62,147 nucleotides of DNA from Prevotella micans DSM 21469 = JCM 16134 (GTDB taxonomy: Bacteria; Bacteroidota; Bacteroidia; Bacteroidales; Bacteroidaceae): the NCBI RefSeq assembly GCF_000614105.1, contig NZ_BAKH01000006.1, positions 1 through 62,147 on the forward strand. The letters are read 5' to 3'. Below, one piece after another: positions 2,585 through 62,147 of the stretch. The notes below the pieces were generated by a model that had not been told where the DNA came from, searched no databases, and saw only the letters and a program-made list of their open reading frames with translations. The translations under genes were made by a program, and so were the position numbers. The first letter of the stretch is position 1. Each line of letters starts with the position of its first letter.

Positions 2585-3101
2585 ACGAAATTTATGCGGG
2601 GAAGAACCGAGTTCCAAACCGTAACTAACCAATGAAAATGAAAGAATATCGAAGTTGATGTAAACTAACCGATAATGAACATGCGATAATAAACGAAGTA
2701 TTTTTTCTGTCAATCCCTTGAACTCCGTCCGGTTTCTAGCTATAGAGATTGGGCGGTTTTTACGTTTCGTAACAATTTTGTTAAACCCAGTCGGAAGCAG
2801 ATGCGCATCTCGTCAAAACTTTCTGCGCACCAAGTTCAAACTTTCTGCGCATCTAATTTAAACTAGATGCGCAGAAAGTTTAGGCGTCTCTATCATCCAT
2901 GATTATCAATAAGTTACGAGTCTGATTTTTCTGCCGTTTTGGAGCTTATTTTAACAATTCGGATAGGATACAGCGCAGGTGGTAGAAGGAATGGCGAAGT
3001 CGACAGGTGGGCGTACCTTATGGGTGGCAATTAGGAAACATATCGATATGCCGGAAAACCGTAGCTTTGCAATCTTTCAATACACATTATATGTTATGCA
3101 C
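2585..3101. other. Intergenic region without a supported gene
   Basis: I see no convincing coding sequence in these 517 bases. The interesting content is a hairpin and its partial copies at 2805-2881, described separately. An in-frame upstream extension of the glycerate kinase reading frame back to 2979 is not family-like and is excluded. Confidence 0.6.
2838..2881. repeat. Perfect 18-bp inverted repeat with nearby half-copies
   Basis: AAACTTTCTGCGCATCTA (2838-2855) is exactly complementary to 2864-2881, leaving an 8-base loop. A further direct copy of the left-arm core (AAACTTTCTGCGCA) lies just upstream near 2816-2829. An AGATGCGCATCT palindrome built from the same word lies near 2799-2810. 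The hairpin lacks a T tract, so it is not a plain terminator. Confidence 0.75.
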
Positions 3102-7810: not shown

Positions 7811-7836
7811 AACCGCGCCCGAAACTTGGAGAGCAT

Positions 7837-8085
7837 AAAACGGCCATCGAAAAACCGTCCTTGGAACTCAGGGAAGCAAAAACGGTCATCGGGAAATCAC
7901 GCCTGAAACTCAGGGAAACAAAAACGGTGACCGAAAAACCGTCCTTGAAACTCAGGGAAACAAAAACGGTCGCAGGGAAACTGTCCTGGAATTCCAGGGA
8001 AGCAAAAACGGTGACCGTATTGCTTAAAAAAATCTCAGGCGACAAAAAACGTACATCGGGTTTGCACAAAAATTTTTCAGGCACG
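7837..8085. repeat. Tandem array A, period 42 bp, about six units
   Basis: Units begin with AAAAACGG at 7837, 7878, 7920, 7962, 8004 and 8044. The inner steps are exactly 42, and the outer ones 40-41. A typical unit has a CGGTGACCG dyad, then ACCGTCC, a CTCAGGGAA segment and an A tract. The last unit is diverged. It lies between two convergent genes, the superoxide reductase and the C1 peptidase. Confidence 0.9.
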
Positions 8086-11051: not shown

Positions 11052-11059
11052 TACCTTTG
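11052..11059 (+). promoter_or_regulatory. -7 element TACCTTTG of the patatin gene
   Basis: An exact match to TAnnTTTG, placing the transcript start near 11066. This decides the patatin start: GTG 11059 would overlap the promoter, so ATG 11080 is preferred. Confidence 0.65.
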
Positions 11060-11079
11060 TGCTGAAATTACTTGTTTTT

Positions 11080-11955
11080 ATGCAAATCAACAGCAATATA
11101 GGATTAGTACTTGAAGGGGGCGGGATGCGTGGAGTTTTCACATCTGGAGTTCTTGATGCATTCATGAAACATGACGTGTTTTTTCGTTATATAGTAGGAG
11201 TCTCGGCCGGCGCATGTAACGGACTTTCATATATGAGTCGACAGCCGCGGAGAGCCAAGATTTCAAACATCGACATGTTGGCCAAGTACGATTATATTGG
11301 TTTGCGGCACCTCGTCACCCAGGGATGCATATTAGATCCGGAGCTGCTCTACAATAAGTTTCCATACGAGATAGTCCCTTTCGACTACGATACCTATTTT
11401 GCAAATATTCGGCGGGGAGATGTCTTCGAAATTGTAACCACTAACTGCCTAACCGGTCGCAGTGAATATTTGCAGGAACGCGACGGCAATTCACATAGAC
11501 TAAATGAATTGGCGCGAGCTACGAGCAGTTTGCCTTATGTGTGCAAGATTGTCGACATCGACGGACAACCGATGCTCGACGGAGGTATAGCCGATTCCAT
11601 TCCCATCGAGCGCGCCATTGCAACTGGCCACAGTAAGAACGTTGTTATATGTACCCGTAATAAAGGCTGGCGCGACAAGGGGAAAGACCATAAGCAGCCG
11701 CGCTTTGTCTACCGTAATTATCCCCGCTTGCGAGTTCTTCTTAGCCGACGTTTGAAGTTCTACAACGAGCAGTTGGATATGGTCGACCGCCTTGAAGCCG
11801 AAAATTCGATACTCGTTATTCGTCCTGAGAAAGAGATTGTTGTCGGTCGAATGGAAAAAGACATCCGCAAGCTTGAGAACCTTTATGAAGAAGGTGTCGC
11901 ACTGGGCAACCGATTCATAAAAGAGCATCTATCGAAGCTAACAGCGCCATATTAA
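11080..11955 (+). CDS. Patatin-like phospholipase
   Basis: This 291-residue predicted lipid acyl hydrolase has a Ser-Asp dyad. The oxyanion loop GGGMRG is at 13-18, the nucleophile Ser42 in GVSAG (40-44), and the partner Asp167 in LDGG. The family includes bacterial YjjU/RssA-type proteins; it probably acts on phospholipids or lysophospholipids. No signal peptide is visible, so it is likely cytoplasmic. ATG 11080 follows the promoter element directly. It is a single-gene unit just before the biosynthetic cluster, with 274 bases between. Confidence 0.88.
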   Translation: MQINSNIGLVLEGGGMRGVFTSGVLDAFMKHDVFFRYIVGVSAGACNGLSYMSRQPRRAKISNIDMLAKYDYIGLRHLVTQGCILDPELLYNKFPYEIVPFDYDTYFANIRRGDVFEIVTTNCLTGRSEYLQERDGNSHRLNELARATSSLPYVCKIVDIDGQPMLDGGIADSIPIERAIATGHSKNVVICTRNKGWRDKGKDHKQPRFVYRNYPRLRVLLSRRLKFYNEQLDMVDRLEAENSILVIRPEKEIVVGRMEKDIRKLENLYEEGVALGNRFIKEHLSKLTAPY

Positions 11956-12119
11956 CTACTTCCAATCATATTATTATTAGGCAAGAACGTTTCGTCAAAC
12001 AGCAACGAGACGAATCCGAGAAGAAATAAATCGTTTATATAATACCTGCATGCTCCGAGATTCGTTTGAGTATATTCCGGAAAAGAAAATCGCCTTTCAG
12101 TCGTCTAGAATTTAATAAT

Positions 12120-12127
12120 TACTTTTG
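12120..12127 (+). promoter_or_regulatory. -7 element TACTTTTG, likely promoter of the polyene cluster
   Basis: TACTTTTG fits TAnnTTTG and lies about 100 bases before the ammonia-lyase ATG. A TTTC at 12094-12097 sits at about -33 spacing as a weak upstream element. No comparable match was noticed later in the cluster, so this may drive a long operon. Confidence 0.55.
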
Positions 12128-12229
12128 CAAACATCTTATACGAGGCACTTCTGTTACACCTCCCCAACACATTTTATTGAGAATAAAAATATTTCGTTGG
12201 AACTGCCTGTTTAAGACTATCAAGAAAGT

Positions 12230-13744
12230 ATGGAAGAGATTGTTTTCACCGTCGACTCAATTCGTAAGATTCTTTTTCAGAATGAAAAAGTGGAGCTCGA
12301 CAACTACACTTACAAGAATATTCAACACTGCTACGATTTTCTGAAATCATTTGCTACGAATCGAATAATATACGGCATCAACACCGGATTCGGGCCGATG
12401 GCACAATGGCGGGTCGAAGACAAGCATCTCGAAGAACTTCAATACAACATCATTCGCAGTCATGCAACCGGCGCCGGTCGGCCGCTCGACGATATCTACG
12501 TAAAGGCGGCCATGGTTGCTCGCGTCGGAACGTTTGCACAGGCACGCTCAGGCATACATCCCAGCGTAGTTAAGATGCTCGTGCAGATGATTAATGCCAA
12601 CATTCTGCCCTTTATTCCGCAGCACGGGAGCGTGGGAGCCAGTGGCGATTTGGTGCAATTGGCGCACATCGCACTCACGATGATTGGCGAAGGCAAGGTG
12701 CATTATCGCGGCGAGTGGCGACCGTCGGCCGAGATACTCAAAGAGAACGGCATCGAGCCGATGAAGATTCATATTCGTGAGGGACTTTCGGCCGTAAACG
12801 GAACCAGCGTGATGACGGGTATCAGTGTGGTTAACCAGATTTATGCCGAACGACTACTCAATTGGAGCGTGCTTGCGGCCGTGTGGATGAACGAGATTGC
12901 AGCGTCGTTCGACGATTGGATGAGCGAACCGCTTAACGCTTGTCGTCGGCACACAAGTCAGCAACTCATTGCCCAACGCATGCGCGAGCTGTCTGCGGGC
13001 AGTCGTCGATTGCAGAAGCGCGAACACGTGCTATATAAAAAGGAGAAATGCCAGCAGGACGTTTTCGAGCAAAAAGTGCAGGCTTATTATTCGCTGCGAT
13101 GCACGCCGCAGATTCTCGGGCCGATTCACGACACGCTCGTTGCTGCCCACACGCTCATCGACGAGGAGCTCAACTCGGCGTGCGACAATCCCATCATAGA
13201 CCCCGAAACGGAAAACGTCTATCATGGCGGAAACTTCCACGGCGACTACATATCGCTCGAGGAAGATAAGGTCAAGATAGCCATCGTAAGGCTCGCTATG
13301 CTTGCCGAACGCCAACTCAACTATCTATTCCACGACCGCATCAACGGCATTCTTCCGCCTTTCCTCAACATGGGCACACTCGGACTGAACTACGGAATGC
13401 AAGCCTGCCAGTTCACCGCCACGTCAACCACCGCCGAGTGCCAAACTCTGGCCATGCCCAACTATGTGCACTCCATTCCCAACAACAACGACAATCAGGA
13501 CATCGTGAGCATGGGCACCAACACCGCCCTACTCTGTGCCCGAGTCATTGAGAACGCCTACGAGGTGATGGGCATACTGATGATGGCTCTCGCGCAGGCC
13601 ACCGATTGCCTCGGCATTGCCGATGAGCTCGCGCCGGCTACGCGGAACATCTACAACGAACTGAGAACGATTTGCAGAACCATCGTCGAAGACAAACCTT
13701 TCTACGACGACCTCGCAAACACGATTGAATATTTGAAGAAATGA
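12230..13744 (+). CDS. Aromatic amino acid ammonia-lyase (HAL/TAL family), first cluster gene
   Basis: It deaminates an aromatic amino acid to an aryl acrylate; in aryl polyene and flexirubin pathways this is the starter acid. The self-forming MIO cofactor triad Ala137-Ser138-Gly139 lies in GSVGASGDL, and the catalytic Tyr48 in IIYGINTGFG. The residues aligned with the selectivity loop are Ser77-His78 (IIRSHATG). That pair is typical of histidine lyases, while one well-known TAL has His-Leu, so tyrosine is likely from context but not certain. Length 504 is normal. The stop overlaps the next ATG (ATGA). Confidence 0.88.
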   Translation: MEEIVFTVDSIRKILFQNEKVELDNYTYKNIQHCYDFLKSFATNRIIYGINTGFGPMAQWRVEDKHLEELQYNIIRSHATGAGRPLDDIYVKAAMVARVGTFAQARSGIHPSVVKMLVQMINANILPFIPQHGSVGASGDLVQLAHIALTMIGEGKVHYRGEWRPSAEILKENGIEPMKIHIREGLSAVNGTSVMTGISVVNQIYAERLLNWSVLAAVWMNEIAASFDDWMSEPLNACRRHTSQQLIAQRMRELSAGSRRLQKREHVLYKKEKCQQDVFEQKVQAYYSLRCTPQILGPIHDTLVAAHTLIDEELNSACDNPIIDPETENVYHGGNFHGDYISLEEDKVKIAIVRLAMLAERQLNYLFHDRINGILPPFLNMGTLGLNYGMQACQFTATSTTAECQTLAMPNYVHSIPNNNDNQDIVSMGTNTALLCARVIENAYEVMGILMMALAQATDCLGIADELAPATRNIYNELRTICRTIVEDKPFYDDLANTIEYLKK

Positions 13745-14469
13745 AATACGCTTTAGTGACAGGCGGAAGCCGAGGAATCGGTCGCGCCATAGCCATCCGA
13801 CTTGCACAAACGGGATTACCCGTTGTGATTAACTATGTTTCAAACGAAGCTGCGGCTGCCGAAACGAAAAACGAAATCGAACAGGCTGGCGGACAAGCCG
13901 AACTACTGCGATTCGATGTATCGAAGCCCGAAGAAATAGAGCGCGCCCTCGGCGAATGGGAAGACAGCCATCCCGACGACTACATCGGCGTGCTGGTGAA
14001 CAACGCCGGCATCCGTCGCGACAATCTCATGATATTCATGCAGAACAGCGAGTGGCACTCTGTTGTAGACACCACGCTCAACGGATTCTTCTACACCACG
14101 CGTCGCCTGCTCAAACGAATGATGACACGGCGCGACGGGCGAATCATCAACATCTCGTCGCTCTCCGGATTGAAAGGACTGCCCGGGCAGGCAAACTATT
14201 CCACCGCCAAGGCCGCCCTCATCGGCGCAACAAAAGCGTTGGCACAGGAGGTTGCACCACGTCGAATAACCGTGAACGCCGTAGCCCCCGGGTTTATTGA
14301 AAGCGATATGACAAAGGATTTGAACCAAGACGAACTCAAGAAACTCGTTCCGGCCGGCCGATTTGGAAAGGCCGACGAAGTAGCCGCCCTCGTGGCCTTC
14401 CTTGCAGGCGACGATGCAGCTTATATCACCGCACAAACCATCGGAATCAACGGAGGACTTTATTCATGA
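13741..14469 (+). CDS. fabG: 3-oxoacyl-ACP reductase, FabG type
   Basis: This NADPH-dependent SDR reduces beta-ketoacyl-ACP to the hydroxy form during chain extension. The cofactor motif TGGSRGIG is at 7-14 and NNAG at 87-90. The catalytic set is Ser140, Tyr153 and Lys157 (NYSTAK). PGFIESDMT follows as in FabG. The length, 242 residues, is standard. ATGA overlaps on both sides tie it to the lyase and the ketosynthase. The cluster context points to the polyene pathway rather than to general fatty acid synthesis. Confidence 0.9.
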   Translation: MKYALVTGGSRGIGRAIAIRLAQTGLPVVINYVSNEAAAAETKNEIEQAGGQAELLRFDVSKPEEIERALGEWEDSHPDDYIGVLVNNAGIRRDNLMIFMQNSEWHSVVDTTLNGFFYTTRRLLKRMMTRRDGRIINISSLSGLKGLPGQANYSTAKAALIGATKALAQEVAPRRITVNAVAPGFIESDMTKDLNQDELKKLVPAGRFGKADEVAALVAFLAGDDAAYITAQTIGINGGLYS

Positions 14470-15680
14470 AAAGAGTCGTAGTGACAGGCATCGGCCTCTG
14501 GGGATGCCTCGGAAAGAACACCCAAGAAGTAACGGAAAGCCTGCGAACGGGGCGAAGCGGCATCGGCCTCGACAGCGCGCGACTGGAGTATGGTTATCAG
14601 TCGGGGCTCACCGGTATTGTTGAACGCCCGAAGCTCAAAGGACTGCTCGACCGCCGCATGCGCACCGGCCTGCCCGAAGAAGGCGAATACGCATTCATGG
14701 CCTCCAAGGAAGCCTTCGCAATGGCCGGCATCGACGAAGATTATATGTTCGGCAACGAAATAGGCTGCATCTTTGGCAACGACTCCTCGTCGACACCCGT
14801 CATCGAAGCCGCCCGCATCATGGAAGCCAAACACGACTCGGCGCTCCTCGGCAGCGGATACATCTTCCAATCGATGAACTCCACCGTAACGATGAACATG
14901 AGCACCATCTTCCACCTGCGCGGCGTAAACTTCACCGTGAGCGCAGCCTGTGCGAGCGGAAGTCATTCCATCGGGCTCGGCTACATGATGATTAAACAAG
15001 GTCTTCAGGATATGGTTCTCTGCGGCGGCGCCCAGGAGGTCAACGTATATTCCATGGCCACCTTCGACGCCCTCGGCGCATTCTCAAAGCGGATGGACGA
15101 GCCAGAGCGAGCCTCCCGACCGTTCGACCGCGACCGCGACGGACTCATCCCCAGCGGCGGAGCGGCTGCCCTTGTGCTCGAAGACCGAGACCACGCCATC
15201 GCCCGCGGCGCCACGATACTCTGCGAAGTAACGGGCTATGGATTCTCGAGCAACGGCGGCGGAATATCCCAACCCAGCGACGACGGCAGCGTGCTGGCCA
15301 TGCAACGTGCCATGAACGACTCAGGCATAGCGGCCGGCCAAATAGACTACATCAACGCCCACGCCACCTCCACTCCGCAGGGCGACATGTTCGAAGCCAA
15401 AGCCCTCGCCCGCCTCTTCGGCAACGAGCGCGCACTCATCAGCTCCACCAAGGGAATGACCGGCCACGAATGTTGGATGGCCGGCGCAAGCGAAATCGTC
15501 TACAGCATTCTCATGATGCAACACAACTTCGTTGCACCGAACGTGAACTTCGACAATCCCGACGAATATTCCGCCCCACTCAACATCGCCGCCCAAACCG
15601 TGGAAACCGAGCTGCACACCGTGCTCTCAAACTCATTCGGATTCGGAGGCACCAACAGCGCACTGATTATTGAGAAATAA
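14466..15680 (+). CDS. Beta-ketoacyl-ACP synthase (FabB/FabF-like), stand-alone
   Basis: It condenses malonyl-ACP with the growing acyl-ACP. The complete Cys-His-His triad is present: Cys162 (SAACASGS), His299 (NAHATSTP) and His334 (KGMTGHECW). The C-terminal SNSFGFGGTN is typical. The length of 404 is that of a single ketosynthase with no extra domain. This differs from the two larger ketosynthases downstream. It starts inside the fabG stop (ATGA). Confidence 0.9.
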   Translation: MKRVVVTGIGLWGCLGKNTQEVTESLRTGRSGIGLDSARLEYGYQSGLTGIVERPKLKGLLDRRMRTGLPEEGEYAFMASKEAFAMAGIDEDYMFGNEIGCIFGNDSSSTPVIEAARIMEAKHDSALLGSGYIFQSMNSTVTMNMSTIFHLRGVNFTVSAACASGSHSIGLGYMMIKQGLQDMVLCGGAQEVNVYSMATFDALGAFSKRMDEPERASRPFDRDRDGLIPSGGAAALVLEDRDHAIARGATILCEVTGYGFSSNGGGISQPSDDGSVLAMQRAMNDSGIAAGQIDYINAHATSTPQGDMFEAKALARLFGNERALISSTKGMTGHECWMAGASEIVYSILMMQHNFVAPNVNFDNPDEYSAPLNIAAQTVETELHTVLSNSFGFGGTNSALIIEK

Positions 15681-15698
15681 CAACTTAATTATTTTTTT

Positions 15699-16268
15699 AT
15701 GAAAAGGATATTAATAGCAATTGTCGCGATTTTCAGCAGTTTAAACATGCTGGCCGGCAGTGATGTAGAATTCGTAAAAGGCAATGCCTGTATCATTGCA
15801 GAGTCTAAAAACTGTTCTGTCGAGGTGACTTTCGAAAACCTCTACATTGAAGGCAAACCCTACATGCAGTATCTCAAAGAACGCGGCGAACAGAATGTAG
15901 CCGACTGGGATACCGACATCAGAGCAGCCGTAGAACAGTTTGTCAAAGAATTTAATAAGGACAATAAAAAGGGACTGAAAGTAAACACAGGACAAGCAAA
16001 CCAGTCGGACTACAGAATGGTTATCAACTTGAAGAAGCTCGACCTCGGGAGTGCGGCCGCGTCGGTAATTATTGGTTTCGGAGCCGGCGGAGCACGTATG
16101 TATTGCGACATAACCGTGTACGATGGCAAGAATCCCATCCTTGTATTAAAGGGCGACGGCGTGAATGGCGGAAGCGGTTATACCGAATCGAAACGCTTGC
16201 GCGACGCCTTCGAAGAGATGGCCGAAGACACTGTAAAAACAATGAAAAAAGCCTGCAAAAGCCATTAA
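15699..16268 (+). CDS. Exported protein of unknown function inside the polyene cluster
   Basis: This 189-residue protein has a signal peptide (MKRILIAIVAIFSSLNMLAG). The body is mixed alpha/beta and has a glycine-rich segment VIIGFGAGGARMYCDITVYDG (about 128-148). A second GDGVNGGSGYTESKRL segment precedes a C-terminal amphipathic helix. The pattern resembles DUF4410-like envelope proteins; I cannot confirm that. It starts 19 bases after the ketosynthase stop and is followed by tandem array B, so it belongs to the same transcript. A periplasmic role in handling the product is a guess. Confidence 0.7.
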   Translation: MKRILIAIVAIFSSLNMLAGSDVEFVKGNACIIAESKNCSVEVTFENLYIEGKPYMQYLKERGEQNVADWDTDIRAAVEQFVKEFNKDNKKGLKVNTGQANQSDYRMVINLKKLDLGSAAASVIIGFGAGGARMYCDITVYDGKNPILVLKGDGVNGGSGYTESKRLRDAFEEMAEDTVKTMKKACKSH

Positions 16269-16750
16269 TAAATGGTTTGGGCTTCGCGGAACTTCCGCAA
16301 ACAGGAAACCAAATAGTTTTAGCTTCGCGGGAGTTCCGCAAATGAGAAACTAAATGGTTTGAGCTCCGCGGGAGTTCCGCAGATGAAAAACCAAATGGTT
16401 TGGGCCTTGCAACAATGTTGCAAACAAGAAACCAAACAGTTTGAGCCTTGCAACAACGTTGCAAACAAGAAACCAAATGGTTTGAGCCTTGCAACAATGT
16501 TGCAAACGAGAAACCGAATAGTTTGAGCCTTGCAACAACGTTGCAAACAAGAAACCAAACGGTTCGGCCCTTGCAACAACGTTGCAAACGAGAAACCGAA
16601 TGGTTTGAGCCTTGCAATAACGTTGCAAACAGGAAACCGAATAGTTTGAGCCTTGCAACAACGTTGCAAACAAGAAACCAAATGGTTTGGCTCTTGCAAC
16701 AATGTTGCAAACAAGAAACCAAATAGTTTGAGCCTTGCAACACCCCTGCA
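16269..16750. repeat. Tandem array B, period 41 bp, about eleven units
   Basis: It starts right after the stop codon at 16268. TTGCAAC landmarks fall at 16407, 16448, 16489 and 16530, in exact 41-base steps. Each unit has two dyads: AAACC-AAAT-GGTTT, and a second core. In the later units that core is TTGCAACAACGTTGCAA. In the first three units it is built from GCGGAACTTCCGC-type sequence instead. Symmetry is kept while the sequence changes. Confidence 0.93.
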
Positions 16751-16785
16751 AGCATAAAACAGAACTTAAAATACAAAACACAACG

Positions 16786-17886
16786 ATGAACTTATTCCCC
16801 TCCCTCACCGAACGCTACACCCGCGAGCAACTTTCGGCACGCGAGGCACAGCGGCTGGCCGAATTCATAGCGTGGGCGCCCGTGGTGTTTCAGGTTTCGC
16901 GACTGATGGTGAAGTTCGGCATACTCGACCTGCTGCGCGACAATGCCGACGGACTAACCGTCGACCAAATCGCCCAACACACAAAACTATCCGTCTATGC
17001 CGTGAAGATACTCACCGACGCATCGCTCAGCGCAGGCACCATTCTCGTAGATGCCGAAACCGACCGATTCACACTCTCGAAAACCGGATGGTTCCTGCTC
17101 ACCGACCCCGCCACACGAGTAAACATCGACTTCAACCACGACGTAAACTATCGCGGACTCTTCCATCTCGAAGAATCGCTCGTAAACAAACGACCGGAAG
17201 GACTGAAAACACTCGGCACGTGGCCAACCATATACGAAGGACTCGCCCAACTGCCCGAACAAGTGCAGAAAAGCTGGTTCGGATTCGACCACTTCTATAG
17301 CGACCACTCATTCGACGAGGCTTTGCCCGTTGTCTTCGCCAGCAAACCCAAGCGTTTGATGGACGTGGGCGGAAACACCGGACGATTCGCACTGCGATGC
17401 GTGGAGTACGACCCGCAGGTGGAAGTGACGATTGTAGACCTGCCCGGACAAATCGACATGATGCGTCGCAACGTAGCCAACAAACCCGGAGCCGACCGCA
17501 TATCGAGCTTCGCAACCAATCTGCTCGAACCGTCGAACAGCCTGCCCTCAGGCGAGTGGGACGCGATATGGATGAGCCAATTTCTCGACTGCTTCGCCGA
17601 GAAAGAAATCGAAAGCATTCTCCGGCGCGCCGCCCAAGTCATGTCGGCCCATACCCACCTCTACATCATGGAAACCTTTTGGGACAGGCAACGCTTCGAG
17701 CCCGCCACGCTCTGCCTCACGATGACGAGCGTTTATTTCACAACCATGGCCAACGGCAACTCGAAAATGTATCACAGCGACGACCTCATTCGCCTCATTA
17801 GTCGCGCCGGTCTGGAGGTGGAATCCATACACGACGGACTCGGACAGGGGCACACCATCTTAGATGTTACATTAAAACACATATAA
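16786..17886 (+). CDS. SAM-dependent O-methyltransferase
   Basis: Of its 366 residues, the N-terminal 110 or so form a winged-helix dimerisation domain of the kind found in Methyltransf_2 enzymes (GLTVDQIAQHTKLSVYAVKILTDASL). The catalytic domain carries SAM motif I DVGGNTGRF (Gly195-Gly199) and a VDLPGQ acidic motif. Relatives methylate phenolic hydroxyls, so it may methylate the aryl head group. ATG 16786 is chosen because upstream in-frame codons lie in the tandem array. The ACP gene follows after five bases. Confidence 0.85.
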   Translation: MNLFPSLTERYTREQLSAREAQRLAEFIAWAPVVFQVSRLMVKFGILDLLRDNADGLTVDQIAQHTKLSVYAVKILTDASLSAGTILVDAETDRFTLSKTGWFLLTDPATRVNIDFNHDVNYRGLFHLEESLVNKRPEGLKTLGTWPTIYEGLAQLPEQVQKSWFGFDHFYSDHSFDEALPVVFASKPKRLMDVGGNTGRFALRCVEYDPQVEVTIVDLPGQIDMMRRNVANKPGADRISSFATNLLEPSNSLPSGEWDAIWMSQFLDCFAEKEIESILRRAAQVMSAHTHLYIMETFWDRQRFEPATLCLTMTSVYFTTMANGNSKMYHSDDLIRLISRAGLEVESIHDGLGQGHTILDVTLKHI

Positions 17887-17891
17887 AACTC

Positions 17892-18137
17892 ATGACACGA
17901 ACAGAAATTGAAGAAAAGGTGAGGCACTTCCTCATCGAAGATTTGGAAATCGACGAAGAAAAGCTCAAACCCGAGGGTAAACTCAAAGACGACCTCGGCA
18001 TCGATAGTCTCGACTTCGTAGACATTGTGGTGATTGTTGAAAACAACTTCGGCTTTAAAATCAAACCCGAAGAAATGGCCGACGTCGTCACCCTTAAAGA
18101 CTTCTGCGACTACATCGAACGCAAGGTAAACGCATAG
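17892..18137 (+). CDS. Acyl carrier protein 1
   Basis: An 81-residue acidic protein with the phosphopantetheine attachment motif GIDSLD and Ser39 as the modified residue. Helix pattern and size are those of type II ACPs. It would carry the starter or the growing polyene as a thioester. It lies between the methyltransferase and the acyltransferase, with gaps of five bases on each side. Confidence 0.92.
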   Translation: MTRTEIEEKVRHFLIEDLEIDEEKLKPEGKLKDDLGIDSLDFVDIVVIVENNFGFKIKPEEMADVVTLKDFCDYIERKVNA

Positions 18138-18142
18138 GCTCC

Positions 18143-19048
18143 ATGCAACGCGAATGGCAAGGCTCAACCGACGGAAACAAGTGGATGCAACAGCAACTCA
18201 TCAACTGTTTCCGCTTTCTCAACCTCCGCATCTACTACGCAGGGGTGGCGGTAGTCGTGCCATTCTATATGCTTTTCGGTCGAGGATTCAAAACTTCCTA
18301 TTCATTCTTCCGTCGCCGGATAGGGCGCGGCAGGTTGCGTTCCGTCTTTCTGGCATATGCCAACTTCTTCCGGTTCGGTCAGGTCATCATCGACCGCTTT
18401 GCCGCTTATGCGGGAAAGAAGTTTAGCATCGCCATCGATAACTACGAAGCCTTCGCCGAGCTGGCCTCTGCACCAGGCTCGTTTATGATGCTCAGCGCGC
18501 ATGTTGGCAACTACGAGATGGGCGGTTACAACTTAGTTTCCGAGCAAAAAACCATCAACGCCATCATCTTTGCCGGCGAAACCGAAACGGTGATGGAGAA
18601 TCGAACGATTCAGTTCGGACGAACAAACATCCGCATGATTCCCATCCGCCCGGACATGAGCCACCTCTTCGCCATCAACCGAGCACTGCGCGACGGCGAG
18701 ATTGTAAGCCTGCCGGCCGACCGTTGCGATGGTTCGGAGCGTACCGTGGCGTGTACGTTCTTCGGACAGACGGCTCACTTTCCGATGGGACCTTTTGCAA
18801 CCATCCAGCAACGCCGAACGCCCGCACTGGCCATCTTCGTAATGAAAGAATCGGTGAAGGGTTATCGCATTTTCGTTCGTCGGTTGGCATTGCCCGATGA
18901 GTCGCTACCGAAGAAAGAGTTCATTCACCAGCTGTCCCAGCAATACGCCGCGCTGGTCGAGGAAACCGTCAGGAAATACCCCACGCAATGGTTCAACTTC
19001 TTCGACTTTTGGGCAGAAACAAACAACGAAACAGATGGAAAGAAATAG
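18143..19048 (+). CDS. LpxL/HtrB-type membrane acyltransferase
   Basis: This 301-residue protein has one N-terminal hydrophobic helix (YYAGVAVVVPFYMLFG, about 31-46) and the catalytic H-x4-E motif at His120-Glu125 (HVGNYE). This is the lipid A late acyltransferase fold. In polyene clusters such enzymes are thought to move the finished acyl chain from ACP to a membrane acceptor, at the inner membrane. It overlaps the start of the next gene by 14 bases. Confidence 0.85.
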   Translation: MQREWQGSTDGNKWMQQQLINCFRFLNLRIYYAGVAVVVPFYMLFGRGFKTSYSFFRRRIGRGRLRSVFLAYANFFRFGQVIIDRFAAYAGKKFSIAIDNYEAFAELASAPGSFMMLSAHVGNYEMGGYNLVSEQKTINAIIFAGETETVMENRTIQFGRTNIRMIPIRPDMSHLFAINRALRDGEIVSLPADRCDGSERTVACTFFGQTAHFPMGPFATIQQRRTPALAIFVMKESVKGYRIFVRRLALPDESLPKKEFIHQLSQQYAALVEETVRKYPTQWFNFFDFWAETNNETDGKK

Positions 19049-19508
19049 CATCCCGCCCTTCGAAAACATCGACGTACTCACGCTCTTGCCCCAGCAACCG
19101 CCATTCGTGATGGTCGACCGACTGCTTGCTTGCGACGACACCCGAACCGTGTGCAGCTTCACCCCGCAACGAGATAACCTCTTCTGCGAGCAAGGCGTAC
19201 TGAAAGCCGCCGGCGTGATTGAGAACATCGCCCAATCGTGCGCCGCCCGTTTAGGCTTTGTCAACAAGTACATTCTTCGTCAGGCCGTTCAGGTGGGCTA
19301 CATCGGAGCCGTGCGCAACCTCACGATATATCGCGAGCCACGAGTCGGCGAAACACTCCGAACCACCGTCGTCATCGAAGAAAGCGTGATGGGAATGACC
19401 CTCGCATCGGCCCGAGTTGAAGCGGCCGACGAACTGATAGCCGAGACGCAGATAAAAATTGCGCTGGCCGAACAAACCGTCCCAACCCCACAAACACCAA
19501 ACGAATGA
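19035..19508 (+). CDS. Hotdog-fold dehydratase-like protein (ApeP-like)
   Basis: The 157 residues follow the FabZ/ApeP hotdog outline. LLPQQPPFVMVDRLL near 20-34 aligns with the FabZ LLPHxYPFLLVDR segment, and AAGVIENIAQSCAARLGF matches the active-site helix with its glutamate. The G-H-F-P loop that gives FabZ its catalytic histidine is missing (LFCEQGVLKAAGV instead), and LLPH reads LLPQ. It may therefore work only together with the second hotdog protein at 25346. Such ApeI/ApeP pairs are known from aryl polyene synthesis. Start ATG 19035 overlaps the acyltransferase end. Confidence 0.75.
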   Translation: MERNSIPPFENIDVLTLLPQQPPFVMVDRLLACDDTRTVCSFTPQRDNLFCEQGVLKAAGVIENIAQSCAARLGFVNKYILRQAVQVGYIGAVRNLTIYREPRVGETLRTTVVIEESVMGMTLASARVEAADELIAETQIKIALAEQTVPTPQTPNE

Positions 19509-19945
19509 CAACCCTGCAAGCCTCGAAACAGATAGACGTACGATTCAGCGAAGTCGATTCGATGAACGTTGTGTGGCACGGCTCCTATGCCCTCTACTTC
19601 GAAGATGCCCGCGAGGCGTTCGGCGCCAAATACGGACTGGAATACATGACCATTGCCGCCGCCGGCTGCTTCGCCCCGCTCGTCGACCTCTCCTTCCGCT
19701 ATCTGCGCCCCATCGTATACGGCATGCCCTGCCGCGTCGACATCTTCTATCGCCCCACCGAAGCCGCCAAGATAGTGTTCGACTACGAGATTCGCGACAC
19801 CCAAACCAACGCACTCATCGCCACCGGCCACAGCGTGCAAGCCTTCATGGACAGAGAATACCGCCTCCTATGGTACCGTCCCGACTTCTACACCGCATGG
19901 CAAAAGCGATGGAAAGTATTTCAGTTGGAAGAAGCTAATGAGTAA
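19505..19945 (+). CDS. 4HBT-type acyl thioesterase
   Basis: This 146-residue single hotdog protein has VRFSEVDSMNVVWHGSYALYFEDARE near 12-37. This aligns with the catalytic D-x-x-G/N-x-V-x-H/Y-x-Y segment of YbgC/FadM thioesterases. It would hydrolyse an acyl-thioester, perhaps releasing the polyene or clearing misloaded ACP. It starts inside the stop of the dehydratase-like gene (ATGA). Its last codons (GAAGCTAATGAGTAA) already form the first unit of tandem array C. Confidence 0.83.
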   Translation: MTTLQASKQIDVRFSEVDSMNVVWHGSYALYFEDAREAFGAKYGLEYMTIAAAGCFAPLVDLSFRYLRPIVYGMPCRVDIFYRPTEAAKIVFDYEIRDTQTNALIATGHSVQAFMDREYRLLWYRPDFYTAWQKRWKVFQLEEANE

Positions 19946-20112
19946 TCTAAAAACACATAATGAGCTATCCGAAGAAAGCTAATGAGCAGTCTCGGGAAAG
20001 CTTAAGAGCTTTTCGGAAAAAGCTTAAGAGCTTTTCAGGGAAAGCTTAAGAGCTTTTTGAGAGAAGCTAATAAGCAATCCGAAAAAAGCTAATAAGCTTC
20101 CGGTAAAAACCG
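19930..20112. repeat. Tandem array C, period 22 bp, about eight units
   Basis: The units resemble GCTTAAGAGCTTTTCGGAAAAA or its variant with GCTAATGAGC. Step length is 22 over the clear part (about 19957-20100). The dyad AAGCT-TAAG-AGCTT is followed by an A or T tract. The first unit holds the thioesterase stop codon, and the array ends just before ATG 20119 of the next ketosynthase. Confidence 0.85.
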
Positions 20113-20118
20113 ATAACA

Positions 20119-21834
20119 ATGGAATGTATAGCCGATAACATTTGTTCGCCACTGGGCTGGACAACCAACGAAAACTTCGCCCGCGTGATGCACGGCGAAA
20201 GCAAGCTCACACGCCATGACGGCAAATGGAACCTCCCACGACCGTTCGTGGCCTCGCTCTTTCCCGACGGCGCCATCGCCGAACGCTTCTCCGCCATCAG
20301 CACCGACGCCGGAAGATACACTCGGTTCGAGCAGCTGGCCATCCTCTCCATCAGCTACGCACTCGCCCAAACACACATCGATGCAGCCGACAAACGAGTG
20401 CTCTTTGTACTCTCAACCACAAAAGGAAACGTGGAACTGCTCGACGACGAGAACCAACCCAACATACCGCGCGAGCGCATCCGGCTCGGTAAGTCGGCCG
20501 CCGTCATCGCCCGGTTCTTCGGCAATCCCAACCAGCCCGTCGTGGTGTCAAACGCCTGCATCTCCGGCGTATGCGCCCAAGCCACAGCCCATCGCCTGAT
20601 GCAATCAGGCCGCTACACCCACGCCGTAGTCTGCGGATGCGATGTCCAATCGAAGTTCATCGTATCAGGTTTCCAATCATTCAAAGCCCTCTCGAGCGAG
20701 CCATGCCGACCATTCGACGCCCACCGCACAGGCCTGAATCTGGGCGAGGCAGCCGCCACCATGATACTCCGTGCCGACGAATCGACCGCCGACGGATGGA
20801 CATCCGGCCACATCGCCATACGCAACGACGCAAACCACATCTCCGGTCCGTCGCGAACAGGCGAGGGCAGCTTCCGAGCCCTACGACGCGTGCTACCAGA
20901 CGACACAGCCCGTCTGGCCTTTGTGAATCTCCACGGCACCGCCACACCCTACAACGACGAAATGGAATCGTTTGCCATCGCCCGAGCCGGACTGCTCCAT
21001 ACACCCGTCAACGCACTCAAAGGCTACTACGGACATACGATGGGAGCGGCCGGTGTGCTCGAAACAATCCTCTCGATGCGAGCCGTCGAGGCCGGCACCA
21101 TCATTCCCACACGCGGATTCGGCACCCTCGGAGTGAGCAACAAGCTAAACATCATCAGCCGCCCCACGAGCACCCACGAACGCGAATTCATAAAACTCCT
21201 CTCGGGATTCGGAGGCTGCAATGCCGCCGTTCGCTGGGTAAAAGACTCCGACGAGGCATCATCCACCCCCATCATCCCAAAGGCCGACATCATCAGCCGA
21301 GTACACCTCTGCTCTGAAAGCGTAGAACTCAACGGCCGCCCCGTAATCACCTCCGCCAAAGGCAGCGCACTACTCGCAGAACTTTACAAACAGGTGGCTG
21401 TCAACTATCCCAAGTTTTACAAAATGGATGCTCTTAGCCGCCTCGGCTTCATCGCCTCCGAACTGCTCCTGTCAGATATCGACCGCGCGACGCTCGACGA
21501 TTGCGCCGTGATGCTCGTCGGACGCACCGGCTGCCTGCTAACCGACCAGAAATATCAAGCCACCATTCAGCACACGGAGCAATTCTATCCCAGTCCGGCC
21601 ACATTCGTCTACACTCTTTCAAACATCATCACTGGCGAAATAGCCATACGCAACAAGATGCACGGCGAAACCTCATTCTTCATCCTCGAAAACAAAGAAC
21701 CAGCGCTCGTGGATGAGCTCATCCGTTCGGCCTTCGCCGATAGCGAAACTCACATGGTGTTGGGCGGATGGATAGAATATGAATCGGCCGACCGCTTCGA
21801 GGCTACCCTCGGCCTGTACAAACGTCACATTTAA
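20119..21834 (+). CDS. Ketosynthase fused to a second, partial ketosynthase domain
   Basis: The 571 residues are long for a ketosynthase. Residues 1-375 form a complete enzyme with Cys147 (NACISG), His272 (NLHGTATP) and His306 (KGYYGHTMGAAG). Residues about 390-571 resemble the PF13723-type ketosynthase N-terminal region: FYKMDALSRLG, then YPSPATFVYTLSNIITGEIAIR. It has no active cysteine of its own. In proteobacterial aryl polyene clusters that fragment is usually a separate gene. The fusion may shape chain length or dimer pairing; this is inference. The second ACP follows after 14 bases. Confidence 0.82.
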   Translation: MECIADNICSPLGWTTNENFARVMHGESKLTRHDGKWNLPRPFVASLFPDGAIAERFSAISTDAGRYTRFEQLAILSISYALAQTHIDAADKRVLFVLSTTKGNVELLDDENQPNIPRERIRLGKSAAVIARFFGNPNQPVVVSNACISGVCAQATAHRLMQSGRYTHAVVCGCDVQSKFIVSGFQSFKALSSEPCRPFDAHRTGLNLGEAAATMILRADESTADGWTSGHIAIRNDANHISGPSRTGEGSFRALRRVLPDDTARLAFVNLHGTATPYNDEMESFAIARAGLLHTPVNALKGYYGHTMGAAGVLETILSMRAVEAGTIIPTRGFGTLGVSNKLNIISRPTSTHEREFIKLLSGFGGCNAAVRWVKDSDEASSTPIIPKADIISRVHLCSESVELNGRPVITSAKGSALLAELYKQVAVNYPKFYKMDALSRLGFIASELLLSDIDRATLDDCAVMLVGRTGCLLTDQKYQATIQHTEQFYPSPATFVYTLSNIITGEIAIRNKMHGETSFFILENKEPALVDELIRSAFADSETHMVLGGWIEYESADRFEATLGLYKRHI

Positions 21835-31752: not shown

Positions 31753-31945
31753 TTCTTCCCCCGCGAGGGAAACGCTACCTGAGAAAAAAACTATTCTTCC
31801 CCCACGAGGGAAATACCACCTGAGAAAAAAGATACTCTTCCCCCACGAGGGAAACACTACCTGAGAAAAAAACTATTCTTCCCTCATGAGGGAAATGCCA
31901 TATGAGGAAAAATATGCTCTTCCCCCGTGAGGGAAAGCTCCGACA
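31753..31945. repeat. Tandem array D, period 41 bp, five units
   Basis: CTTCCC landmarks fall at 31755, 31796, 31837, 31878 and 31919, all in steps of 41. The dyad is TTCCCTCATGAGGGAA in its best copy and TTCCCCCACGAGGGAA elsewhere. The rest of the unit is CTACCTGAGAAAAAAACTA-like with a 6-7 base A tract. The array starts a few bases after the ABC gene stop. Confidence 0.92.
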
Positions 31946-39942: not shown

Positions 39943-40165
39943 TTCGCGCTGGAGCGACGAAGTGATTTTTTAATTTTTACTGTTTCGCGCCGGAGCGAAG
40001 CTGTGTTTTTTTGATTTTCTGGCTTTCGCGCTGGAGCGACAGGCTACTTTTTCAATTTTTGCTATTTCGCGCCGGAGCGAAGCCATGTTTTTTTGATTTT
40101 CCGGCTTTCGCGCTGGAGCGACAGGCTATTTTTTCGATTTTCACTGTTTCGCGCCGGAGCGAAAC
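39943..40165. repeat. Tandem array E, period 41 bp, six units
   Basis: TTCGCG landmarks fall at 39943, 39984, 40025, 40066, 40107 and 40148, every step exactly 41. The dyad is TTCGC-GCCGGA-GCGAA (or GCTGGA), followed by GCTGTG or CAGGCT and a T tract of 5-8 bases. Two unit types alternate (CTGG/ACAGG and CCGG/AGC). It lies downstream of pflA. Confidence 0.95.
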
Positions 40166-47914: not shown

Positions 47915-48195
47915 GAAAAAAGTACTATCGTTTTACCCAAAAAGTACTATCGTTTTCATCAAAAAGTACTATCGTTTTTGGCAAAAGGTACTATCGTTTT
48001 TGATGAAGGGTACTATCGCTTTAGATAAAAGGTAATATCACTTTAGATGAAAGGTGCTATCATTTTTGATGAAGAGTACTATCGCTTTATATGAAAGGTA
48101 CTATCATTTTTGATGAAGAGTACTATCGTTTTTGATGAAGAGTGCTATTGTTTTCCGCAAAAGCTAATATCGGATAAAAATAAAAGTAGCATCTT
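47915..48195. repeat. Tandem array F, period 22 bp, about twelve units
   Basis: GTACTATC landmarks fall at 47922, 47944, 47966, 47988, 48010, 48032, 48054 and 48076, each step 22. The unit is about GTACTATCGTTTTTGATGAA, with a T tract and a weak ATC / GAT dyad. Bases 47552-47914 show no gene. Confidence 0.93.
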
Positions 48196-51889: not shown

Positions 51890-52200
51890 AAATCGAGCAT
51901 TTGGGTATTTGCATCGGTGTAAGAACTGGAAATAATTTATTTCCGGGCGTTACATCTGATGTAACGACTGGAATAGTCTCTGCCGGGAGCTTACACTGCG
52001 TGCAAGTCGAAAAAATAGTCTCTGCCGGGAGCTTACACCGCGTGCAAGTCGAAAAAATAATCTCTGCCGGGAGCTTACACCGCGTGCAAGTCGAAAAAAT
52101 AGTCTCTGCCGGGAGTTACACTGCGTGCAAGTCGAAAAAATAATCTCTGCCGGCATTTTTCACCGCGTGCAGTCCACGAAATAATTTATTCCGAGCGTTG
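51890..52200. repeat. Tandem array G, period 42 bp, about seven units
   Basis: TCTCTGCC landmarks fall at 51977, 52019, 52061, 52103 and 52144 (the last step is 41 because one C is missing in GGGAGTTACA). The dyad is CTTACACCGCGTGCAAG in the central units, GTTACATCTGATGTAAC in an earlier unit and TTTGCATCGGTGTAAG before that. An A tract (GAAAAAATA) follows each dyad. The array ends about 40 bases beyond the cls stop. Confidence 0.92.
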
Positions 52201-56514: not shown

Positions 56515-56811
56515 GAAAAAAAACGTTCGTCGCCAAAGGGCGAAGCCACAAACAAGAGAAAAAATGCTCGTCGCCAAAGAGCGAAGCCACAAACAAGAAA
56601 AAAAACGCTCGTCGCCGAAGAGCGAAACCTCAAACAAGAAAAAAAATGCTCGTCGCCAAAGGGCGAAGACATGAACCAGGAAAAAAACGCTCGTCGCCAA
56701 AGGGCGAAGACATGAACCAGGAAAAAAATGCTCGTCGCCAAAGAGCGAAGCCACAAACAAGAAAAAAAATGCTCGTCGCCAAAGGGCGAAGACATGAACC
56801 AGGAAAAAGTT
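56515..56811. repeat. Tandem array H, period 41 bp, seven units
   Basis: TCGTCGCC landmarks fall at 56527, 56568, 56609, 56650, 56691, 56732 and 56773, every step exactly 41. The dyad is TCGCC-AAAG-GGCGA, followed by AGACATGAACCAGG or AGCCACAAACAAG and an A tract of 6-8 bases. It ends five bases before the stop codon of the minus-strand permease. Confidence 0.95.
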
Positions 56812-62015: not shown

Positions 62016-62103
62016 TGTATAATGAATCATACAAATGTGTATAATGAGTTATACAAATGTGTATAATGAGTTATACAAATGTGTATAATGAGTTATACAA
62101 GTG
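62016..62103. repeat. Tandem array I, period 22 bp, four units
   Basis: TGTATAATGA starts at 62016, 62038, 62060 and 62082. The dyad GTATAA-TGAG-TTATAC is followed by AAATGT. The first unit differs slightly (TGAATCATAC). Confidence 0.92.
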
Positions 62104-62147
62104 TGAATTGCTTCAAAATGTGTATCTATGCAGTAGTATAAACAACG

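Follow-up and report, generated by a model that had tools for sequence, protein, structure and literature searches.

A 41-bp tandem array in Prevotella micans, most likely a joint of two repeat types, and two-fold symmetry across intergenic arrays

An intergenic tandem array of Prevotella micans DSM 21469 = JCM 16134 (array B) has two different dyad-symmetric cores, designated types G and Q, and raises the question of whether both halves of the core changed together because symmetry matters, or whether two repeat types were brought together. The array lies in a window, the whole stretch of DNA that was analyzed, which comprises 62,147 nucleotides of contig NZ_BAKH01000006.1 (Table 1). We confirm the preliminary description of three units of one core type followed by nine of another in a 41-bp array, and also that both types occupy the same position in the unit, with the 12 cores spaced exactly 41 bp apart across the G/Q junction. 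Ten such arrays are present in the window, array B included, with base periods of 22 or 41 to 42.

Table 1. Features of array B, its neighboring genes, and the other arrays of the window
Feature	Coordinates	Strand	Remarks
Upstream gene (DUF4410)	15699..16268	+	array B begins at its stop codon
Array B, 12 tandem 41-bp units	16269..16756	+	intergenic, about 490 bases
Type G block, 3 units	16269..16387	+	GCGGAACTTCCGC-type cores
First G-type core	16286..16298		GCGGAACTTCCGC
Type Q block, 9 units	16388..16756	+	TTGCAAC-NNN-GTTGCAA cores; last unit degenerate
Flanking dyad, unit 4 of array B	16388..16401		AAACC-AAAT-GGTTT
First Q-type core	16407..16423		TTGCAACAATGTTGCAA
Downstream O-methyltransferase gene	16786..17886	+	ATG about 30 bp past the last array B unit
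Intergenic array, period 22	2802..2864		no dyad signal
Intergenic array, period 42	7832..8017
Intergenic array, period 22	19958..20099		dyad GAAAGCT-aatg-AGCTTTC
Intergenic array, period 41	31753..31936
Intergenic array, period 41	39943..40163
Intergenic array, period 22	47917..48171		no dyad signal
Intergenic array, period 42	51972..52171		no dyad signal
Intergenic array, period 41	56515..56791		dyad TCGCC-aaag-GGCGA
Array, period 22	62016..62105		dyad TGTATAA-tgag-TTATACA

Within the type G block, unit 1 has the core GCGGAACTTCCGC and units 2 and 3 have GCGGGAGTTCCGC, with the consensus GCGG[AG]A[CG]TTCCGC. The type Q units (4 to 12) share GCAAC-NNN-GTTGC within TTGCAA...TTGCAA, with unit 9 being a GCAAT variant. 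The flank AAACC-AAAT-GGTTT, described as common to all units, holds as a consensus, but single units vary (AAAC[CT]-[AG]AA[CT]-[GA]GTT[TC]) and unit 1 lacks the left arm. The centers of the flank dyad and the core are 20.5 bp apart, and calculation gives this offset in the related arrays C107 and C86 as well. That both halves of the core changed together is true of three inner pairs (G-C to A-T twice, and A-T to C-G), which differ between the types together with the central bases, but the outer two pairs (G-C and C-G) are common to both. The pattern is not due to chance, as there are 26 occurrences of GCGGAA.TTCCGC and 29 of GCAAC...GTTGC in the 459 kb sampled from the genome, all of them no more than 60 bp from an array. 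A CRISPR array was considered and rejected, because the units abut without unique spacers.

The minisatellite of which array B is a copy is dispersed, and among the species searched it is confined to P. micans. A DNA search of its own genome (2.42 Mb in 107 contigs) with array B gives 16 partly overlapping matches, and five arrays contain both core types in register, always G then Q and with the 41-bp spacing kept across the junction. Their numbers of G and Q units are 3 and 9 in array B, 5 and 10 in C40, 9 and 9 in C85, 1 and 10 in C107, and 4 and 7 in C101. Three arrays have G units only (C98, C86, and C105), and C81 is a Q-only fragment at a contig end; C101 likewise stops at a contig edge, and the two may belong to a single array. 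A search of the genome for the flank dyad at 41-bp spacing finds at least 73 places per strand, and the matches listed include a further G array (C75) and an array in C95 (21571-21625) with the flank AAACAAAATTGTTT and yet another core, TTTTGCGTCACAGAGTGCCAGCGGACGAAAA. In L010 and L015, a comparable flank (AAAC...GT[TA]T) adjoins other cores. No array B match was found by DNA search in any of 29 relatives, and an exact-pattern scan of genome_contigs, in which near-identical records may be absent, gave one Lapidilactobacillus contig, which we take to be a chance match. The genes adjoining the B-family arrays are unrelated, and no shared regulon is seen.

To trace the origin of the two cores, 86 units, of which 82 are distinct, were aligned from nine arrays of this genome. 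Of the 92 units listed, 91 are complete, and the alignment covers all of these except five terminal ones. In the drawn structure, 88.7% of the cells are paired, and the covariation score exceeds all 500 shuffles as well as the slid controls, but the covariation of the 13-bp core amounts to one block switch of the three pairs that differ between types G and Q. Core pairs 24-32 and 25-31 show no intermediate in the 82 distinct units (44 versus 38 sequences). For the five core pairs there are 11 single and no paired changes within type G, and 8 single and no paired changes within type Q. These 19 single changes and the lack of paired ones argue for one inherited core switch and no repeated compensation, and speak against stepwise paired change as the source of the array B cores. 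Single changes also predominate in the flank dyad (75 single, 3 paired) and in the outer two pairs adjoining the core (58 single, 6 paired). Units are more alike within than between arrays, with identities of 0.881 versus 0.723 for type G and 0.860 versus 0.841 for type Q (0 of 500 permutations each), indicating that the arrays homogenize.

The flanks of the C101 G block have an identity of 0.774 with inverted C105, 0.701 with inverted C86, and 0.777 with C75 in the same orientation, compared to 0.46 to 0.60 with same-orientation units of six arrays and 0.52 to 0.61 with the G units of B, C40, C85, and C98 in either orientation (array B unit 1 was also omitted from this comparison). The C101 G block belongs to another, inverted subfamily, and two arrays of different origin have been joined there. 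Within B, C40, and C85, the identity of G versus Q flanks is 0.70 to 0.77, in contrast to 0.80 to 0.83 for Q units of different arrays, and this flank difference points to ready-made unit types in these arrays. The derivation of the two core types from separate arrays, with which the preliminary description contrasted paired change, is therefore clear in C101 and consistent with B, C40, and C85. Array B is most likely a joint of two ready-made repeat types, so that cores move as blocks when arrays are joined, and we note that what looks like covariation inside a single array can arise where two blocks meet.

Is symmetry nevertheless a property of these arrays in general? We counted intergenic arrays of at least 60 bp with a period of at least 14 (own gene calls) in a 459-kb sample of this genome, made up of the window and 20 stretches taken from contigs with array B matches, and in 1.2 Mb from 24 other species of the genus. 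There are 48 arrays in the former and 44 in the latter. Intergenic arrays occupy 2.4% of the 459-kb sample (2.3% of the 20 stretches and 3.4% of the window alone), a figure that describes array-bearing contigs and not the genome at random. Periods of 22 to 23 or 41 to 42 account for 42 of the 48 arrays of this genome's sample, and the ranges 20 to 23, 39 to 45, 61 to 69, and 81 to 88, which were chosen with the data in view, take in 46 of these 48 and 35 of the 44 from the other species. A Rayleigh test on the periods is significant at any step from 10.5 to 25, and clustering is evident although a 21-bp step is not fixed. Samples from 14 of the 24 other species contain at least one such array, and there are few in 480 kb from four other families of the order (TRF periods of 23, 21, 21, and 42).

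Dyads were scored in 77 of 83 family representatives (one per family, with periods below 14 left out) against a dinucleotide-shuffle control. The best dyads of the 58 intergenic families with 22/41-type periods have a mean z of 1.47 and a Stouffer Z of 11.2, and nine intergenic families of other periods have a Stouffer Z of 4.2, indicating that dyads are not bound to the 21-bp spacing. For coding families, the values are -0.4 (six families of other periods) and 1.35 (four of 22/41-type periods). When alignment columns are permuted in 35 arrays, there are 6.7 paired positions versus 2.3 in the control, and the dyad arms are less variable than the rest of the unit in 31 of the 35. Once the B family is removed and each remaining family is represented by a single array, the arms are quieter than in the permuted control in 23 of 26 (P = 8e-5), with 6.0 pairs versus 2.4; this test left out arrays with fewer than 4 units, and 6 of 32 families have no stem. 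As would be expected of protein-bound dyads, the symmetric sites are conserved above the spacers. Two dyads per unit are present in 13 of 28 families with 39- to 44-bp units, compared to 9% of shuffles, and in 8 of these 13 the dyad offset is within 2 bp of half the period, compared to 32% in shuffles. The proposal that two-fold symmetry counts for more than exact sequence thus holds across the arrays, but not as an inference from array B itself. Such arrays make up 2 to 3% of the sampled DNA of this genome, in many unrelated sequences with a common short dyad that is quieter than its surroundings, and offer a testable case for selection on symmetry apart from sequence in bacterial noncoding DNA.

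The positions of the arrays are hardly conserved. Among 97 conserved neighboring gene pairs between species, seven comparisons involve an array in one or both species (two arrays enter twice), and the only one of the seven with an array in both has different sequences. At the array B site itself, the DUF4410 gene is upstream of the methyltransferase in 3 of the 19 methyltransferase loci in the genus; the other 16 have other sequence upstream and reveal little about this site. The gap between the two genes is 2 bp in L021 and about 60 bp in L020, and in L018, whose methyltransferase is the closest, they are separated by a further small gene; no tandem array was found in these three gaps. An array-free site for the target-site duplication check is seen in distant species only. 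Among the 16 other loci, L034 carries a 22-bp array upstream at a distance of about 1 kb.

The explanation that we favor, with a probability of about 0.45, is that array B belongs to a dispersed minisatellite with a block joint and with two-fold sites in duplex DNA, about two turns apart, for a putative dimeric binder. The G-then-Q order in five arrays, the block-wise difference, and the different copy numbers argue for the joint. The two unit types would have come together in register, the common AAACC...GGTTT flank being the probable place of recombination, and the G and Q blocks would then have expanded and contracted separately. The half-unit of about 21 bp, in this species and in the others of the genus with this class of array, often carries a two-fold symmetric site. 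Most likely, each dyad would be a site for a dimeric DNA-binding factor, and the two-turn spacing would align neighboring sites along the same helical face. Given the many unrelated dyads that serve, this would require more than one factor, or else a single one that responds less to sequence than to symmetry and spacing. Several observations do not favor this explanation. The dyads of the families have no common sequence, and this fits poorly with a single protein that recognizes sequence; the neighboring genes are unrelated, positions are hardly conserved, and several arrays have no dyad; only 13 of the 58 families are significant singly (P < 0.05), and dyads are also present at other periods. 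Furthermore, the B family read on the B strand has 54 A.C versus 23 G.T mismatches (the units are related and the P value is unreliable), an asymmetry that the duplex-site model does not predict.

The main rival of duplex sites is a purely mutational origin, which we regard as possible though rather doubtful. Hairpin-prone DNA without function would be duplicated by replication slippage, with template switching rewriting both arms at once. This accounts for the arbitrary sequences, restricted presence, poor positional conservation, and strand symmetry of the arrays, as well as for the both-arm change without intermediates at two core pairs. Three-nucleotide loops at the dyad center are also in excess (17 versus 6.6 expected), and such short gaps suit hairpins; however, when smaller centers are allowed, 11 of 27 dyads extend to a gap of 1 to 2, as full palindromes would. 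Template switching further predicts scattered paired changes, but the co-directional arrays have 173 single and 5 paired changes. Quieter arms look like constraint, and the narrow period classes are left unexplained by mutation.

A broader form of the protein model, which is quite unlikely, supposes a genus-wide satellite DNA, in which a putative protein would read symmetry and two-turn spacing and arrays of any sequence would serve, spread, and be replaced blockwise, perhaps organizing or insulating the chromosome between genes.

Also unlikely are RNA hairpins, with the arrays being transcribed and serving in the mRNA to terminate, stabilize, or space it. Short gaps between co-directional genes do contain arrays B, C, and D, and clusters of hairpins are proposed as intrinsic terminators in PMC8355165; the arrays resemble these in their serial short stem-loops after genes. 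Array B folds strongly (z = -7.4 on the plus strand), but the minus strand, antisense to its genes, folds better still (z = -11.3). More generally, if pairing were needed in the sense transcript, then G.U should be tolerated and A.C not, but the arm mismatches of co-directional arrays, in the sense reading, are 53 G.T, 60 A.C, and 63 others. Mean local fold z values are -2.38 for sense and -2.52 for antisense, and the sense fold is better in 18 of 42. Base pairing in sense RNA is thus not borne out. From this lack of strand asymmetry we infer that it is in duplex DNA, and not in the sense transcript, that symmetry is maintained, although a role needing both strands, such as a two-way terminator, would mask a strand signal. 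Unlike the hairpin-cluster terminators, array B has no terminator-like site; between 15690 and 17000 the only GC-rich stem with a T run is at 16122-16139, outside the array. A sigma-70-like promoter search of the same interval gives one site, also outside the array, with 1.1 expected, and Rfam identifies only five tRNAs in the whole window, with no match in array B, which looks to be inside one operon. By our own gene calls, 10 of the 24 convergent gaps contain arrays, as do 24 of the 96 between co-directional genes and 3 of the 21 divergent ones, and the difference between convergent and divergent gaps is not decisive (P = 0.055).

A mobile element of the MITE type with a tandem-repeat interior is very unlikely, although copies of one array family are dispersed at unrelated loci and Porphyromonas gingivalis has 41-, 23-, and 22-nt tandem repeats (MITEPgRS/MITE464 and BrickBuilt), some inside MITEs with terminal repeats (PMC4596501). 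As characterized there, the P. gingivalis repeats, the nearest known counterpart of the present arrays, are intergenic minisatellites with species-restricted sequences, many loci, and predicted stem-loops, all features of the present arrays, which also fall into the same period classes; array B, with its period of 41, is an intergenic 41- or 23-nt tandem repeat like MITEPgRS and BrickBuilt. Both of these have IS5-like terminal inverted repeats according to the same paper, and BrickBuilt has a leader and tail in addition. In contrast, the flanks of seven B-family arrays contain no terminal inverted repeats beyond chance, with the longest exact inverted repeats between flanks being 5 to 7 nt (shuffled mean, 6.2 to 6.8), and ends are shared only by C40 and C107 (both flanks) and through a 12-nt match of the C85 and C86 ends. 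The 0.44% of its genome given for BrickBuilt (PMC4596501) and the 2.4% here are not like for like, the latter covering all families in array-bearing contigs. The present arrays also differ from BrickBuilt and MITEPgRS in the conservation of dyad arms across unrelated arrays. Among the papers listed in our literature searches, none was seen to describe such arrays in this group.

Minus-strand open frames of 131 to 235 amino acids crossing array B (16069-16776, 16319-16714, and 16350-16808) can scarcely represent a coding repeat, given that a 41-bp period shifts the frame at every unit, that the minus strand of the consensus unit is stop-free in any frame, and that our own gene calls did not pick them.

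Two other known systems are comparable in part. REP/BIME elements, associated with RAYT transposases, are intergenic tandem palindromes often located after genes. The present arrays are likewise intergenic tandem palindromes, but they have no one shared sequence, and the genome (91.94% complete) has no match to the RAYT domain (Y1_Tnp, PF01797), which is matched in 5 of 14 control genomes. Iteron and operator arrays have repeated sites about two helical turns apart that are bound by multimeric DNA-binding proteins. The spacing is similar here, in contrast to the many unrelated sequences in one genome and the unrelated neighboring genes.

The B-family arrays at L002 1377-2396 and L004 1156-2007 have common flanking DNA on both sides, a duplication that exceeds the array, and in the C107 copy a DUF6261 gene is downstream. 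A dispersed repeat with GTAGGGAC...CCCC and GGTGATTTGCTGTCC motifs is seen by eye near arrays at L004 1370-1450, L065 7374-7480, and L071 10952-11115, and may be a separate mobile repeat. In the window, positions 11059-21834 contain a cluster of genes for an aromatic amino acid lyase, ketosynthases, an ACP, a methyltransferase, an acyltransferase, and a thioesterase, with two arrays inside; it resembles an aryl polyene or flexirubin-type pigment cluster. The thioesterase-ketosynthase gap has the 22-bp array at 19958-20099, and in another species (L090, 10637) this gap has an unrelated 28-bp tandem repeat; the dyad has P = 0.020 in the window array and P = 0.41 in L090.
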